Positions 49,130 to 56,726 of a DNA stretch of 64,000 bases are shown one piece after another. Where the stretch lies: positions 1 through 64,000 of the forward strand of contig JADBKP010000009.1 of the NCBI GenBank assembly GCA_014896315.1. Direction: 5' to 3'. This DNA is from Limnochordales bacterium. GTDB lineage: Bacteria; Bacillota; Limnochordia; Limnochordales; DUMU01. Numbering within the stretch: the stretch's first letter is position 1; each line of letters begins with the position of its first letter. The position numbers and the translations under genes were made by a program. The notes beneath the pieces are model-generated. The model was not told the DNA's origin and ran no database searches. It saw nothing but the letters and a program-made list of their open reading frames with translations.

Positions 49130-49171
49130 GACATGAGTGGGTACTCGTATCCAGTGCAGGAGGCGAGACGA

Positions 49172-51508
49172 TTGCAGAGGAGGCGGGAGGCGCAATCCCT
49201 GAGGGAACTTCTATTGGAGCTGGCGCGAGCCCGAGGCGGAGCGGGGGCAGAGACTCCCGTCGCCCGGCTTGTCACGAAACTGGCTGCTCCCTGGGTTGAT
49301 GCCTGCCACAGGGATCAGCTGGGCAACCTCTGGCTGATCCGCAGGCCGCGCCGGGAAGCCGCAGGCCCCCGCATCATGCTGGCCGCCCATATGGACGAGA
49401 TCGGGTGGCTGGTGAGCAGCATTGAAGATGGGGGTTTCTTGCGTTTGCGGCCGCTTGGCGGACCGGATGTGGCGACGTACCTGGGGCACGAGGTACTGGT
49501 CGAGAACAGGGAAGGCCGGCTGTTTCCCGGGATAGTCGGCACGAAGCCGCCGCATATAACCCGGGCTGATGAGTACCGCCGCTTCCCGGAAGCGGAAGCC
49601 CTTTTCGTGGATGTGGGGCTGAGCGAAGCGGAGGTGCGCCAGCACATCCAGGTAGGAGACATTGTCTATCCGGCGGTTGAACCCTGGGAGCTGGGCGAAG
49701 GCAGGATTACGGCCAAGTCGCTGGACAACCGGGCCTCGGTCGCGACGGTTCTCTGGGCGCTGCGGCTGCTTCAGGACCGGGATACCGCTGCGGAGGTTGT
49801 GGCCGTGGCCACTGTGCAGGAAGAACTCGGGATGCGGGGAGCACGCGTCGCCGCCACGAGCATCGAACCCGACCTGGCTATTGCTCTGGACGTGGGTTTC
49901 GGCCTGCAACCGGGGGTTGACCGCTGGACCGGGATCAGGCTCGGTAAAGGCCCGGCCCTGACCGTCGGCCCGAACATCCACCCCGGGTTGCGCCAGGCGC
50001 TGCTGGATACAGCCCGCCGCATCCGGGTCGAGACGCAGGTGGAGGTGGCCGCCGGTTCAACCGGGACCGATGCCTGGCTGATCCAGGTGGCCGGCCGGGG
50101 CATACCCACGGCGCTGCTCTCGCTGCCGCTCCGGTACATGCATTCTGCGGTCGAGCTGGTTGACGTGGGGGATCTGGAGGAGACCGCCCGTCTGCTCGCC
50201 GAGTTTATCGTCAATGCCGGTCCCGAGTGGCGGCGTACCCGTCCCCGGTGGTTGACGGGCGGGGAGGGAGCGGCGGCTGGTATAGCGGCAGCGGCAGTTC
50301 ACCAGGACGGCACGGGGAAGAGTGCGGACGAGGCGGGTGACGCGGGCAAGGCGGGGGAGGAGGGTGACGCGGCTGAGCATCCGGCAGAAGATCCTTCTGC
50401 GGACCGGAGTGCCAGGATTGCGGCGGGCCTTGCCAGAATCGATCTTGATGCAGCCGGGCATGAGTTGGCCCGCCGGCTTGTAGCGCATCTTGCCGAACTC
50501 TCGGAGCTGCGCGGTCCTTCGGGGGCGGAGGCCCCGGTCCGGGAGTGGCTCCTGGACCACCTGCCGCGGGAGGTAGACGAAGTTTTCATTGACAGCATGG
50601 GCAATCTCCTTGTGGCCCGCGGCCTTGGCCGTCCAGGCCCCCGGGTGATGGTCGATGCTCATATGGACGAGGTCGGACTGATCGTTCAGGGGGTGGACGA
50701 TGACGGCCTGCTGCGTATCGACCAGATTGGCGGCATCGACCCGCGGGTCTTGCCGGCCCAGCGGGTCCTGGTAGGACCGCGGGCGCTGCCGGGCGTGATC
50801 GGGGTGAAGCCAATACACCTGCGCAAGGGCGAAGAGCGCAGCCGCGCCCCCCAGTACGAGAACCTCTACGTTGACATCGGTGCAAAGGATAAGGATGCTG
50901 CCGAGAAGTTGGTTCAACCGGGGGAGACGATCACCTTCGCCACCCGCTTCGAGCTGATAGGGAACGGGCTGGTAAAGGGGAAGGCGCTGGACGACCGGGG
51001 AGGCTGTGCCATCCTCCTCGAGTTGCTGGCGGAGGATTGGCCTTTTCCATTCTTTGCCGCTTTCACGGTGCAAGAAGAGGTGGGCCTGCGGGGAGCGCAG
51101 GTGGCAGCAGAAGAGATTCTGCCGGATGTCGGGCTTGCCCTGGAGACGACCATCTGTGCCGACCTGCCTGACGTGCCCGGCCACGGTCAGGCCACCCACC
51201 TTTGGGGCGGGCCGGCCATCAGCTTCCAGGACCGCGCTTCTGTTGCGGACCGGGAGCTGGTGGAGCTGATTGAGAAGGTGGCCGCTCGCGAGGGGATTCC
51301 CTGGCAGTGGCGGCGCGCCCTGGGCGGGGGCAACGATGCGGGGGCGATTCAACAGAGGGCGGGCGGCGCCCGAACCTGCAGCATCTCCATTCCGTGCCGG
51401 TATATCCATACTCCTGCCTGCCTCCTGTCGGTGGTCGACATGGTCAATACTTACCGCCTGGCCCGGGCCTTTCTCCGGGCACTGGCAACCGAGTGGCCAA
51501 GGTCCTGA
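49172..51508 (+). CDS. Double-domain M42 aminopeptidase fusion
   Basis: M42 aminopeptidases normally have about 350 residues and form 12-mer tetrahedral cages. This 778-residue protein holds two complete copies joined by an Ala/Gly/Glu/Asp-rich linker (about residues 360-415). Copy 1 keeps the dinuclear metal residues in AAHMDEIG, KSLDNR, VQEELG and ALDVGF plus RYMHSAVEL; copy 2 in DAHMDEVG, KALDDRGG, VQEEVG, ALETT and RYIHTP. TTG 49172 follows AGGAGG at 8 nt. The third, ligand-less M42 gene follows after 46 bp. A sequencing artefact joining two genes is unlikely given the long linker with normal codon use. Confidence 0.9.
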   Translation: MQRRREAQSLRELLLELARARGGAGAETPVARLVTKLAAPWVDACHRDQLGNLWLIRRPRREAAGPRIMLAAHMDEIGWLVSSIEDGGFLRLRPLGGPDVATYLGHEVLVENREGRLFPGIVGTKPPHITRADEYRRFPEAEALFVDVGLSEAEVRQHIQVGDIVYPAVEPWELGEGRITAKSLDNRASVATVLWALRLLQDRDTAAEVVAVATVQEELGMRGARVAATSIEPDLAIALDVGFGLQPGVDRWTGIRLGKGPALTVGPNIHPGLRQALLDTARRIRVETQVEVAAGSTGTDAWLIQVAGRGIPTALLSLPLRYMHSAVELVDVGDLEETARLLAEFIVNAGPEWRRTRPRWLTGGEGAAAGIAAAAVHQDGTGKSADEAGDAGKAGEEGDAAEHPAEDPSADRSARIAAGLARIDLDAAGHELARRLVAHLAELSELRGPSGAEAPVREWLLDHLPREVDEVFIDSMGNLLVARGLGRPGPRVMVDAHMDEVGLIVQGVDDDGLLRIDQIGGIDPRVLPAQRVLVGPRALPGVIGVKPIHLRKGEERSRAPQYENLYVDIGAKDKDAAEKLVQPGETITFATRFELIGNGLVKGKALDDRGGCAILLELLAEDWPFPFFAAFTVQEEVGLRGAQVAAEEILPDVGLALETTICADLPDVPGHGQATHLWGGPAISFQDRASVADRELVELIEKVAAREGIPWQWRRALGGGNDAGAIQQRAGGARTCSISIPCRYIHTPACLLSVVDMVNTYRLARAFLRALATEWPRS

Positions 51509-51554
51509 ATAGAGACCGGGCGGATAACTGTTCACCAGGAAGAGGGCGTCAGAG

Positions 51555-52703
51555 ATGGAACGAGTATTCAACGAAGAAGAGCTTGCGGAGTTGGCTCGCT
51601 GGGTAGCGGCAATTGCGCCTACCGGCCGGGAAGATAGCTTGCGGGCCATGATCCTGGATGGCCTGCAACGTGGCGGAAGCGGGCTGGAGGGGCATGCAAC
51701 CTGGGAAGTTGATGCGCTGGGCAACCTGGTCGTTGCTGCTGGGACAGCCCGGTCGGTCCGGTCTGACGAATCAGCCTCATCCGGCCCGACCGGGACGCAG
51801 ACCGGGATCGGGACCGGAATCAGGGTTGCGATCGCCGCACCCCTGGACGAGCCGGGGCTGGTGGTAACTCATATCGATGAGGACGGGTGGCTGCGGGTCG
51901 AGCTTCTGGGTGAACTGACGCCCGCCGGCGTAGTGGGTCGTCAGGTTGCCTTTCGGGGGCGGACCAGGACGGTGTGGGGAGTGGTCGCTCCCGAACGGCG
52001 GCGAGGCAGCGGCGGCAGTTCACGCAACGGTGAGGGGTCGGGCGGTGAGTTGCGCGCCGACGAACTCTTCGTCGACGTGGGGGCGACCAGCCGCAGCCAG
52101 GTTGAGGAGGAGCTGTCTCCGGGTTCGGCAGGGGTGATATGGTATGGCGAGGTACTGGCCCGCGGCCTGTCGGGCGATCGGCTGAGCGGTAAGGCGCTGG
52201 GGCGGCGGGCGCTGGCCTACCTGGTGTATACTTTGCTTTCCCGAGTGGAGGGAGCGATCGGCTTCATATTCGCGGCGCAGAGCCTCCTGGGCGGCCGTGG
52301 CGTTCAGCCCGCCGTCTACCGGCTACGCCCGGACGTGCTCATCGTCTTGCAGCCCGTGCCCTCTGCCGACTGGCCGGCCGTGCCGAAAGGAGAAGTACGT
52401 CTGGGGGGTGGCCCCGTACTGGTGGTTCATGCCGGAGCAGCAGGGTCGGACCGGCAACTGCTGGCGCGGGCGCAAGAGTGGGCGACCGCGCGCGGGCTTC
52501 AGGTCCAGAGGTGGGTGGCCGATGGCCGGACGGCAACCGACCTCAGCCAGGGCGCCTGGGCCGGTGGTGGTGTCCGGGTTCTCGGCCTGGGCCTGCCCGT
52601 ACGGGCGGTGACAGGAGGTCCGGAGACGATCTGCGCCGGCGACTGGCTGGCGCTGCGGGACTTGCTCGCAGGCCTGCTACAGGATCAGGTTGGCTTAAAC
52701 TAG
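51555..52703 (+). CDS. M42-like pseudo-enzyme
   Basis: A 382-residue intact frame whose layout follows M42 peptidases (start LARWVAAIAPTGRED, ELFVDVGATS, C-terminal VRAVTGGPETICAGDWLALRD) but whose metal ligands are gone. AHMDE is APLDE (Pro96), KALDDR is KALGRR (Gly216), QEEVG is QSLLG (Ser243, Leu244). The usual C-terminal RYxHS is also altered. It is probably catalytically inactive and may serve as a structural or regulatory subunit of a hetero-oligomer with the upstream fusion. ATG with GGAAGAGGG. Confidence 0.78.
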   Translation: MERVFNEEELAELARWVAAIAPTGREDSLRAMILDGLQRGGSGLEGHATWEVDALGNLVVAAGTARSVRSDESASSGPTGTQTGIGTGIRVAIAAPLDEPGLVVTHIDEDGWLRVELLGELTPAGVVGRQVAFRGRTRTVWGVVAPERRRGSGGSSRNGEGSGGELRADELFVDVGATSRSQVEEELSPGSAGVIWYGEVLARGLSGDRLSGKALGRRALAYLVYTLLSRVEGAIGFIFAAQSLLGGRGVQPAVYRLRPDVLIVLQPVPSADWPAVPKGEVRLGGGPVLVVHAGAAGSDRQLLARAQEWATARGLQVQRWVADGRTATDLSQGAWAGGGVRVLGLGLPVRAVTGGPETICAGDWLALRDLLAGLLQDQVGLN

Positions 52704-52781: not shown

Positions 52782-54533
52782 TTGCGGGAGTTTTTGAGGC
52801 TCAAAGAGTTCTTCGTACGTAACAAGTGGCGTTACTTTGCCGGCATCCTCTCCCTCCTTATAGTCGATACCGGACAACTGGTGACGCCCCAGATTCTCAA
52901 GGGGGCGGCCGATGCCCTGCAGGACGGGAGGCTCACCGCTCCCCTGCTGTTGCGCTACGTTCTCGCTTTTGCCGGGGTAGCGGGCGTGATTGCAGTTGGC
53001 CGTTTTGGGTGGCGGATCTTCATAGCCGGGGCTGCCCGGCAGCTCGAGATGGAGTTGCGCAACCGCTTCTTTGCGCACCTGGAGAAGTTGTCGGCGAACT
53101 TCTTCAACCAGCGCACGACAGGCGACCTGATGGCCCATGCCACCAACGACATCGGGGCGATTCGCCAGGCGGTGGGGCCGGGCCTCATCACGCTTATCGA
53201 CTCCCTTTTCCTGACCGGGATGGGGCTCTTCACTCTGGTCTATACCATTGATTGGAAGCTTACGGTGATCGCCCTGCTCCCCATGCCACTTTTGGTGTTT
53301 ACCATCATCTATTTCGGTCGGCAGATCCACCGCCGGTTCCGGCGGGTGCAGGAGAGTTTCGCCGAACTCACGGGAATAGCCGAGGAGAGCTTTGGAGGCG
53401 TACGGGTTGTCAAGGCTTTCGTCCAGGAAGAGGCGGAATGCGAGAAGTTCGCACGGCAGAATCGAGAGTATATCGCCCGCAACATGCAGCTTGTCCAGCT
53501 CTGGGGCTTGTTTGGGCCGCTGTTGCAGTGGCTGTCGGGTTTGAGCGCCGTCATTGTGATCGGCTATGGCGGTTATCTCACCGTTACCGGCGTCATCAGC
53601 CTGGGCGACTTCATTGCCTTCCAGAGTTACCTGGGACTTTTGACCGGCCCGATCATGGGATTTGGCAATGTGGTAAACAACCTGCAGCGCGGCGCGGCCT
53701 CCATGGCCCGGATCAACGCGATCCTGAACGAAGTTCCGGAAATACGCGACACGGAAGATACCCTTCCCGTGACCGACCTGAAGGGTGAGATCGAGATCCG
53801 CAACCTGACCTTCCGTTACCGCGATGATCTGCCTGCGGTGCTGGAGAATATCAACCTCAAGCTGGAGGCCGGGCAGACGCTGGGGATTCTGGGCAGGACT
53901 GGCAGCGGCAAATCGACGCTGGCCAACCTGCTTCTGCGGATCTACGATCCTCCGGCCGGGACTATCTTCATAGATGGCGTGGACGTGCGCCGGATCCCCC
54001 TCGCCACGCTGCGGGAGAAGATCGGGTACGTACCGCAGGAGAACTTCCTCTTCTCCACGACGCTGGCGGCCAACATTGCCTTCGCCCGTGACCAGTGGAC
54101 GATGGAGGAGGTAGAAGAGGCGGCCGCGCAGGCGGCGCTTATCGATGATGTGCGCGGTTTTGCCAATGGGTTCCAAACCATTGTGGGTGAACGGGGAATC
54201 ACCCTCTCCGGAGGCCAGAAGCAGCGGGTGGCGATCGCCCGGGCGTTGCTGAAGAATCCCCGCATCCTGATCCTGGACGATTGCCTGTCGGCGGTGGATA
54301 CCCGCACCGAAGATGCCATCCTGCGACGGTTGCGGGAGGTGATGCGGGAGCGGACCAGCATCATCATCTCGCATCGGGTCTCGACTCTTCAGGAGGCCGA
54401 CCGGATAGTGGTCCTCGACCGGGGGCGGATTGCCGAGATCGGTACTCACGAGGAGTTGTTGGCACGGAAGGGAATCTACTGGGACACCTATCAGCGCCAG
54501 CTGCTGGAAGAGAAGATCTTGGCCGACGCCTAG
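52782..54533 (+). CDS. ABC exporter subunit with degenerate catalytic site (BmrC-like)
   Basis: A 583-residue half-exporter: six membrane spans (residues 15-310) and a nucleotide-binding domain with Walker A GRTGSGKST, signature LSGGQKQR, Walker B ILILDDCLSAVD and H-loop SHRVST. The catalytic glutamate after Walker B is Asp (residue 500), typical of the degenerate partner in heterodimeric exporters such as BmrCD and TM287/288. The substrate is unknown; family members export drugs. TTG start after GGAGGAGGG. The partner gene follows after 57 bp. Confidence 0.92.
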   Translation: MREFLRLKEFFVRNKWRYFAGILSLLIVDTGQLVTPQILKGAADALQDGRLTAPLLLRYVLAFAGVAGVIAVGRFGWRIFIAGAARQLEMELRNRFFAHLEKLSANFFNQRTTGDLMAHATNDIGAIRQAVGPGLITLIDSLFLTGMGLFTLVYTIDWKLTVIALLPMPLLVFTIIYFGRQIHRRFRRVQESFAELTGIAEESFGGVRVVKAFVQEEAECEKFARQNREYIARNMQLVQLWGLFGPLLQWLSGLSAVIVIGYGGYLTVTGVISLGDFIAFQSYLGLLTGPIMGFGNVVNNLQRGAASMARINAILNEVPEIRDTEDTLPVTDLKGEIEIRNLTFRYRDDLPAVLENINLKLEAGQTLGILGRTGSGKSTLANLLLRIYDPPAGTIFIDGVDVRRIPLATLREKIGYVPQENFLFSTTLAANIAFARDQWTMEEVEEAAAQAALIDDVRGFANGFQTIVGERGITLSGGQKQRVAIARALLKNPRILILDDCLSAVDTRTEDAILRRLREVMRERTSIIISHRVSTLQEADRIVVLDRGRIAEIGTHEELLARKGIYWDTYQRQLLEEKILADA

Positions 54534-54590
54534 AGGCTACCTGGCGCGTCCATATCTCATGGCGCTTGCGCACCTCGAGGAGGGTGAGGG

Positions 54591-56726
54591 TTGAGGGAGT
54601 TTCACGAGGAAGAGGCATTAGGTAAAGCATATGATGCCCGGCTTATGCGCCGGCTGATGCGGTACGCCAAGCCTTACTGGCACCGTTTTGTCCTGGCGAT
54701 TATCATGGCGCTGGCGGTGGCGGCGGCCGGGCTGGTTCAGCCGCTGCTCATGCAGCGGGCCATCGACGACCATATCATCGGGCCGACCAAACCAATGGTT
54801 GCCTTCACCCCGGGCACCGAGCCGGTCCCCGGCGTCCTCTGGCAGGGCAAAGTTTACGTCCGGGAGAGTGCCTTGAAGGACAAAAGTCCGGCGGAGGGGG
54901 CGATCACTGCCGGTCGCTATCAGCTCGTGCTTGTGGACGGTCAGGCCTACCTGGTGACCCTGCCTGCCGGCGTTGTCGAGATTACTCCGCCCTACAAAGT
55001 GGAGGACGGACAGGTGATCGTGGCTGGTGGCCTGCGCCTGCCGGCTCAAGCGCTGGACGAGAGTGAGGCCGACCTGTTTCGCGCCCGGGACATAGCCCGG
55101 GTGCGTTGGCTCGCCCTGCTACTCCTTGCCTTGTTGACCTTCTCCTTCCTCACGAACTACGGCCAGACCTATCTTTTGCACCGGACAGGCCAGCAGATCA
55201 TGTACGATCTGCGCCAGGAGCTCTATCGTCACCTACAGAGCCTCTCCCTCTCCTTCTTCGACCGAAACCCCACCGGCCGTCTGGTCACCCGGGTCACCAA
55301 TGACGTCGAAGCCCTGAATGAAATGTATACGGGGCTGTTTGTCAACCTCTTCCGTGACCTTTTCCTGCTGATCGGTATCGTGGTGGCCATGTTTGGTTTA
55401 AGCCCGCGCCTCGCAACACTTGCCCTTCTCACGCTGCCGGTCTTGACTGCGGTTACCTACGCCTTCCGGATGAGGGTACGGGAGGCCTACCGGCAGGTGC
55501 GGACCAGGCTTGCCCGTATCAATGCGGCCATGGCCGAGAATATCTCCGGAATGCGGGTAATTCAGATCTTTCACCGAGAACAGGCAAAACTTGCCGAGTT
55601 CGCCCGGATCAACAAGGATTATTATGATGCTTCCATGGTGCAGTTACTGATATTTGCCATTTTCCGGCCGGCCATCGACCTGATTTCGACCCTGGCCGTA
55701 GCCATGTTGCTCTGGTTTGGCGGAGTGCGGGTGATTGAGGGGACGGTCTCCTTTGGAGTGCTCTTTGCCTTCATCTCCTACATCCAGCAGTTCTTCCGGC
55801 CCATCAGCGATCTTACCGAACAGTACAACGTGCTCCAGACCGCCATGGCCTCGGCCGAACGCATCTTCCAGCTCCTCGACACGCAGGAGAGGATTCCGGT
55901 CCCCGCCAACCCAAGGCCGCTTGGTCGGATTCGCGGGGAGGTCGAGTTCGACCACGTCTGGTTTGCCTACAAGGGCGAGGAGTGGGTGTTGCGGGACGTC
56001 TCTTTCCGAGTTGAGCCGGGGCAGACTGTGGCACTGGTGGGCGCCACGGGAGCCGGCAAATCCTCCATCATCAGCCTGCTCAGCCGCCTCTATGACATTC
56101 AGAAAGGAAGCATCCGCGTCGACGGTATCGACATCAGGGAGGTCGATCCGGCCGAACTGCGCCGGCAGATCGCCGTAGTCTTGCAGGACGTTTTCCTCTT
56201 TACCGGAGACATCGCTTCCAATATCCGGTTGAACAACACCGAGATCGACGATGAGCGAGTGCGCTGGGCGGCGGAAGTGGTGGGGGCGATGGAGTTCATC
56301 GAGAAGCTCCCGGGCGGGCTGGCAGCCAGGGTGACCGAACGGGGGTCGACCCTTTCTGCCGGCCAGCGCCAGCTCATTGCCTTTGCGCGAGCCCTGGCCT
56401 TCGATCCCCGGATTCTCGTCCTGGACGAGGCGACGGCCAACATCGATACCGAGACGGAACAGTTGATCCAGGCGGCTCTGGCCCGGCTTATCAAAGGGCG
56501 GACGACGATCGTTATCGCCCACCGGTTGTCTACAATTCAGAACGCTGACAAGATCATCGTTCTGCACAAAGGCAGGATCCGGGAGATGGGCCGCCACGAG
56601 GAGCTGCTGGCGCTTGGCGGACTTTACTACGACCTGTACAGGCTCCAGTACAAACTGGACGTGGACGGCAACACCCGCGTGGCCGACCCGACCGGTTCCG
56701 GCAGTACAGTGACCCGGCCTGCCTAA
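54591..56726 (+). CDS. ABC exporter subunit with extracellular domain (BmrD-like)
   Basis: A 711-residue half-exporter. Between membrane spans 1 and 2 is an extracellular domain of about 110 residues (about 60-165), as in BmrD. The NBD has Walker A GATGAGKSS, the non-standard signature LSAGQRQ, Walker B VLDEATANID with catalytic Glu613, and H-loop AHRLST, so it supplies the active ATP site of the heterodimer. TTG start behind GAGGAGGG. The stop overlaps the convergent secreted-protein gene by 4 bp. Confidence 0.93.
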   Translation: MREFHEEEALGKAYDARLMRRLMRYAKPYWHRFVLAIIMALAVAAAGLVQPLLMQRAIDDHIIGPTKPMVAFTPGTEPVPGVLWQGKVYVRESALKDKSPAEGAITAGRYQLVLVDGQAYLVTLPAGVVEITPPYKVEDGQVIVAGGLRLPAQALDESEADLFRARDIARVRWLALLLLALLTFSFLTNYGQTYLLHRTGQQIMYDLRQELYRHLQSLSLSFFDRNPTGRLVTRVTNDVEALNEMYTGLFVNLFRDLFLLIGIVVAMFGLSPRLATLALLTLPVLTAVTYAFRMRVREAYRQVRTRLARINAAMAENISGMRVIQIFHREQAKLAEFARINKDYYDASMVQLLIFAIFRPAIDLISTLAVAMLLWFGGVRVIEGTVSFGVLFAFISYIQQFFRPISDLTEQYNVLQTAMASAERIFQLLDTQERIPVPANPRPLGRIRGEVEFDHVWFAYKGEEWVLRDVSFRVEPGQTVALVGATGAGKSSIISLLSRLYDIQKGSIRVDGIDIREVDPAELRRQIAVVLQDVFLFTGDIASNIRLNNTEIDDERVRWAAEVVGAMEFIEKLPGGLAARVTERGSTLSAGQRQLIAFARALAFDPRILVLDEATANIDTETEQLIQAALARLIKGRTTIVIAHRLSTIQNADKIIVLHKGRIREMGRHEELLALGGLYYDLYRLQYKLDVDGNTRVADPTGSGSTVTRPA

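Follow-up and report, generated by a model that had tools for sequence, protein, structure and literature searches.

M42 enzymes form 12-subunit tetrahedra that are built from dimers, and bound metals, those at site M1 in particular, help this assembly (PMC8993905). Particles that mix paralogues have also been described. In Pyrococcus horikoshii, TET2 and TET3 form heterododecamers with controlled placement of the two proteins (PMC4220976), and a study on Bacillus subtilis reports that YtoP and YsdC were cross-linked in cells and models them as a heterodimer (PMC10090944; entry 9a5r). The aminopeptidase TmPep1050 of Thermotoga maritima is active by itself (PMC3511314), and one of the forms in which it has been solved is a dimer (5ne6). 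For the most part, M42 particles have been studied as single-subunit cages. Closed peptide-degrading chambers that combine active and inactive subunits include the beta ring of the eukaryotic 20S proteasome and ClpP/ClpR, the folds of which are unrelated to M42, and we know of no M42 case of a chamber with mixed active and inactive subunits. A literature search turned up neither a recurrently dead M42 subunit nor a covalent M42 pair, an M42 triplet or M42 hetero-oligomers in Clostridium. Mixed M42 particles are already known, and it is the recurrently dead subunit and the covalent pair for which we found no published report.

A fused A-B gene and a ligand-less third gene

The locus described here lies in the window, by which we mean the whole stretch of 64,000 nucleotides that was analysed. 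It consists of one gene in which two M42 subunits are joined and of a third M42 gene behind it, and we refer to the three subunits as A, B and C after their place in the gene triplet described below. The features are as follows.

49172 to 51508, plus strand: fused M42 A-B gene (open frame, two full PF05343 matches, SD AGGAGG, same fusion in two related genomes)
49352 to 50194, plus strand: N half, subunit A, orthologue of the triplet's first gene (Pfam match, ligands, A clade support 100)
50252 to 50389, plus strand: linker between the A and B halves, residues ~374-419 (alignment of three fusions, predicted disorder)
50600 to 51460, plus strand: C half, subunit B, orthologue of the triplet's second gene (Pfam match, ligands, B clade support 99)
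51536 to 51546, plus strand: ribosome-binding-like CAGGAAGAGGG before the third gene (sequence)
51555 to 52703, plus strand: subunit C turned pseudo-enzyme, M42 fold without metal ligands (Pfam match, alignment, model, superposition)

The fused gene encodes 778 amino acids from TTG 49172 and 791 from the first ATG at 49133, with the frame open from 49133 to 51508. Because an SD AGGAGG at 49158-49163 lies 8 nt upstream of it, TTG 49172 is the better candidate for the start. Pfam M42 (PF05343) matches each half of the protein, at 270 and 283 bits where the curated cut-off for membership is 23.2 bits. The metal set is intact in the A half (H86, D88, D198, E230, E231, D253 and H337 in 791-aa numbering) and in the B half (H510, D512, D620, E648, E649, E671 and H759 in the same numbering), giving active-site strings, with the HxD aspartate included, of HDDEEDH and HDDEEEH, respectively. 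Both halves hold the residues that a two-metal site requires, and the B half carries at the sixth site the Glu that marks B subunits. A preliminary description of the locus had proposed one 778-residue frame with two full metal sets, which is borne out by the open frame, the two Pfam matches and the presence of all ligands. It had put the linker at ~55 residues; by our alignment and model the linker is ~46 residues long (pLDDT < 50, predicted disordered), and its length and sequence differ among the three genomes that carry the fusion. Despite the disordered linker the model of the fused protein reached a pTM of 0.86. Since the input had all single-domain A and B sequences aligned onto the C half, the N half rested on three sequences, and the model was still confident. 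The pTM of this single-chain model suggests that the A and B halves dock onto each other.

The third gene starts 46 nt after the stop of the fusion and encodes 382 aa with an M42 match of 99 bits. Its ligand positions read Pro96, Gly216, Ser243, Leu244, Gln266 and Thr353, such that all six are replaced. The first four of these had been pointed out before and agree with our alignment, the register of which is backed by superposition of the AlphaFold model; Gln266 in place of Asp/Glu and Thr353 in place of His are two further losses. The residues required for a two-metal site are thus missing from the third protein and likewise from its counterparts in the related genomes G001 and G002. The fold is predicted to be retained: the model has pLDDT 87 and pTM 0.88, and 325 of its residues superpose on TmPep1050 (4p6y) at Z 40.3 and an rmsd of 2.2. 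An alternative register that would restore the ligands was rejected, as the structural superposition on 4p6y covers the whole chain. The P, G, S and L substitutes are common to all three family members, which are 43-52% identical in this protein, and, where the pocket used to be, the family's dead C carries newly conserved motifs, among them APLDEPG, GRR, QSLL.GRG and DLSQGxW. A degenerate-pattern scan of the genome contigs in which only the third protein served as query gave no match.

Derivation from an ancient three-gene cluster

Looking for the same fusion in other genomes had been proposed as a check on the preliminary description, and the fusion was present in each of the three family members sampled (the window genome, one of the same genus and one of another genus) and nowhere outside the window family within the sampled genomes. 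The two additional copies are uninterrupted and are 69% and 59% identical to that of the window, and by parsimony on the A+B tree the fusion is one change. The window genome itself comprises 2.6 Mb in 20 contigs, and its relatives include Bacillota MAGs, one of which is labelled Limnochordaceae.

Elsewhere in the order and class, separate M42 genes, usually three, are found at the same place, and the A and B genes there often share a few nt, read in different frames. The A-B-C order was seen in 77 of 80 loci from a sample of the phylum and class and also in many Clostridium and Chloroflexota loci, and is fixed across Bacillota and Chloroflexota. On the tree, A, B and C each form one clade (support 100, 99 and 96), and the third protein of the window falls in the C clade as an orthologue of the triplet's third gene. 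At the sixth ligand position, Glu is present in 164/171 B proteins and Asp in every A protein of the 171 triplets, from which it follows that the paralogues are old and distinct. We conclude that the locus derives from an ancient cluster of three M42 aminopeptidase genes in the order A-B-C.

Thermotoga maritima offers the closest structural counterparts. When its structures were scored with A, B and C profiles, the top-scoring profile was A for 1vho, which we take to be the TM1048 product, B for 2fvg (TM1049) and C for 3isx/4p6y (TM1050), matching the parts of the window locus; the three genes presumably stand side by side. They are, however, three separate genes, and TmPep1050, the C orthologue, is active and metal-bound, whereas its counterpart in the window is without ligands.

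The C gene is absent from G015, G020 and rumen Clostridia loci, and two genomes of the window's class, like some Clostridia, seem to have lost it outright. A-B pairs without an adjacent C were recorded at L036, L037, L089, L090, L103, L118, L120, L125, L126, L132 and L133.

Repeated loss of active sites and selection on dead C

In each of 171 complete triplets we read seven active-site positions, namely the HxD aspartate and the six ligand or catalytic residues. The active site of A was intact in 171/171, B was changed in 6 and C was dead in 33, the latter figure not being a prevalence since the sample is non-random and was gathered in part with dead C as the query. All three sites were intact in 136 triplets, only C was lost in 29, B and C were lost together in 4, and only B was changed in 2, one of these being merely Asp to Glu. 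The most parsimonious history on the A+B tree has C losing its site four times and B three times. That A was spared in all seven losses is suggestive, with a probability of ~0.06 if the genes are equally likely to be hit, and so not significant.

Dead C proteins were found in the window family, in sampled Clostridium-type Clostridiaceae loci, in an Alicyclobacillaceae MAG (L069) and at L237, in every case directly behind A-B. The preliminary description had paired the dead paralogue with the fusion; both are real, clade-specific and retained, but the two need not go together. In Clostridiaceae and other lineages a dead C stands behind unfused A and B, so that the joining of A and B and the inactivation of C are distinct events. 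In the sampled Clostridiaceae the catalytic Glu of dead C is gone in all loci except L229, and the proteins range from L076 (HDDAEDH), with every metal ligand kept, to L068 (SDSGKSN), with nearly all lost. Because the Glu is gone nearly throughout while some loci keep all metal ligands, the alignment suggests that catalysis was lost first and that metal binding eroded afterwards.

Two further patterns were noted. At L039:7638-8678 (G033), B is dead (HDPKEDG) with A and C intact, the reverse of the usual pattern. In the Clostridiaceae loci L227, L228, L229, L230 and L234, active-site residues are lost in both B and C, and only A is intact.

For the closest pair of loci with a dead C (NDTSYDN), L073 and L075 from Clostridium cadaveris and a close relative, dN/dS of C was 0.126 at a dS of 0.68, and that of A and B was 0.073 and 0.076, respectively (dS 0.5-0.7, unsaturated). 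In the window family C gave a dN/dS of about 0.31-0.48, which is only rough because dS is near saturation. Dead C thus evolves faster than A and B, and these ratios indicate that it is under purifying selection. Of the 67 positions that intact C conserves, dead C keeps 34 at 85% or more, for the most part glycines and residues of the core, and has lost 20, four of them in the active site. Such conservation is typical of a protein that is maintained as a fold rather than as a catalyst. A simple pseudogene reading of the third gene was rejected on the grounds of selection, predicted fold and frame retention.

A proposed mixed particle and its alternatives

Given a conserved trio of which one or two proteins can lose catalysis yet stay under selection, a mixed A-B-C cage would be the simplest explanation. 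We consider it probable that A, B and C co-assemble as one mixed TET-type cage, with C kept as a non-catalytic subunit and A and B tethered in the case described here. The paralogues would form a single TET-type (12-protomer tetrahedral) peptide-degrading particle; with other active sites supplied by the particle, individual subunits would be free to lose catalysis, and those without it would be retained for assembly, chamber geometry or substrate routing. In the window family, C would have lost all six metal-site residues once, before the split of the three sampled members, and the flexible linker would join A and B at a fixed 1:1 ratio, the A-B pair perhaps being the dimer building block. 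Because C has no metal ligands, it would be expected to need A-B for higher assembly. The fixed gene order in two phyla, the losses in C or B and never in A, the purifying selection and the known M42 hetero-oligomers lend this proposal indirect support. A role of C as a cap or gate is no better supported than a plain structural role. Whether the particle is also widespread, with catalysis lost repeatedly in C, sometimes in B and never in A by parallel evolution, and with A-B made covalent here, we regard as evenly balanced.

The TET2-TET3 particle resembles the proposed cage in that different M42 paralogues take up defined places in one particle (PMC4220976), but both of its partners are active, it was built from homodimers in vitro, and it has neither a fusion nor a dead subunit. 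YtoP and YsdC are likewise M42 paralogues in contact, although in the available part of that report they are two partners only and neither is reported dead or fused (PMC10090944). If the mixed cage is correct, bacterial M42 cages can be built from distinct subunits. The unevenly dead trio would then provide natural mutants for metal-free assembly, chamber geometry and substrate routing, and the natural A-B fusion would fix a subunit pairing that is otherwise hard to control and permit a direct structural test.

It is unlikely, in our estimate, that C stands outside the particle with a new job, as a dead M42 protein that binds peptides or regulates, is dimeric and has no contact with A or B. 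Metals, at M1 especially, matter for assembly of the M42 dodecamer (PMC8993905), so that a ligand-less C may not form a cage of its own, and the new pocket motifs conserved in the family and the faster evolution of dead C would suit such a protein. Nevertheless, C stays directly behind A-B in all dead cases found, and the ligands lost differ by lineage, which is more easily explained by a weaker demand for catalysis than by a single new function of the pocket common to all.

We think it improbable that the genes encode three separate homo-oligomeric aminopeptidases of differing specificity, clustered for co-expression, with a redundant C that is slowly eroding in some lineages. A+B particles or separate homo-oligomers can work, given that TmPep1050 is active alone (PMC3511314) and that C is absent in several lineages, and A, B and C differ in their chamber loop as well as at the sixth ligand (Glu in 164/171 B). 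Slow erosion is, however, at odds with a dead C frame that is kept in the three family genomes at the identities given above and also across Clostridiaceae loci, with the dN/dS of 0.126 in the closest dead-C pair and with the 34/67 fold positions that dead C retains.

Finally, that the fusion is an assembly or frameshift error and the third gene a pseudogene has hardly any probability left and is refuted for practical purposes: although all three fusion genomes are draft assemblies of many contigs, two of them metagenome-assembled, an assembly error is very unlikely because two other family genomes carry the same uninterrupted fusion, each of the three has a different linker, and the third ORF is without stop or frameshift in all three and folds well in silico.

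Neighbouring genes and other M42 copies

The trio in the window is followed closely by two ABC exporter genes in the same direction (52782-56726); the exporter pair was not found behind the trio in L059 and does follow it in L060. M42 sequences also occur apart from the trio. In the Clostridium cadaveris genome of L073, about half of an M42 domain lies within a 1863-codon open frame (G266:C1:534477-534998). The window genome has one further separate M42 gene, G000:C17:259332-260216, which at 391 bits has the genome's top M42 score, and an extra M42 copy elsewhere in the genome is also present in several genomes of the order.
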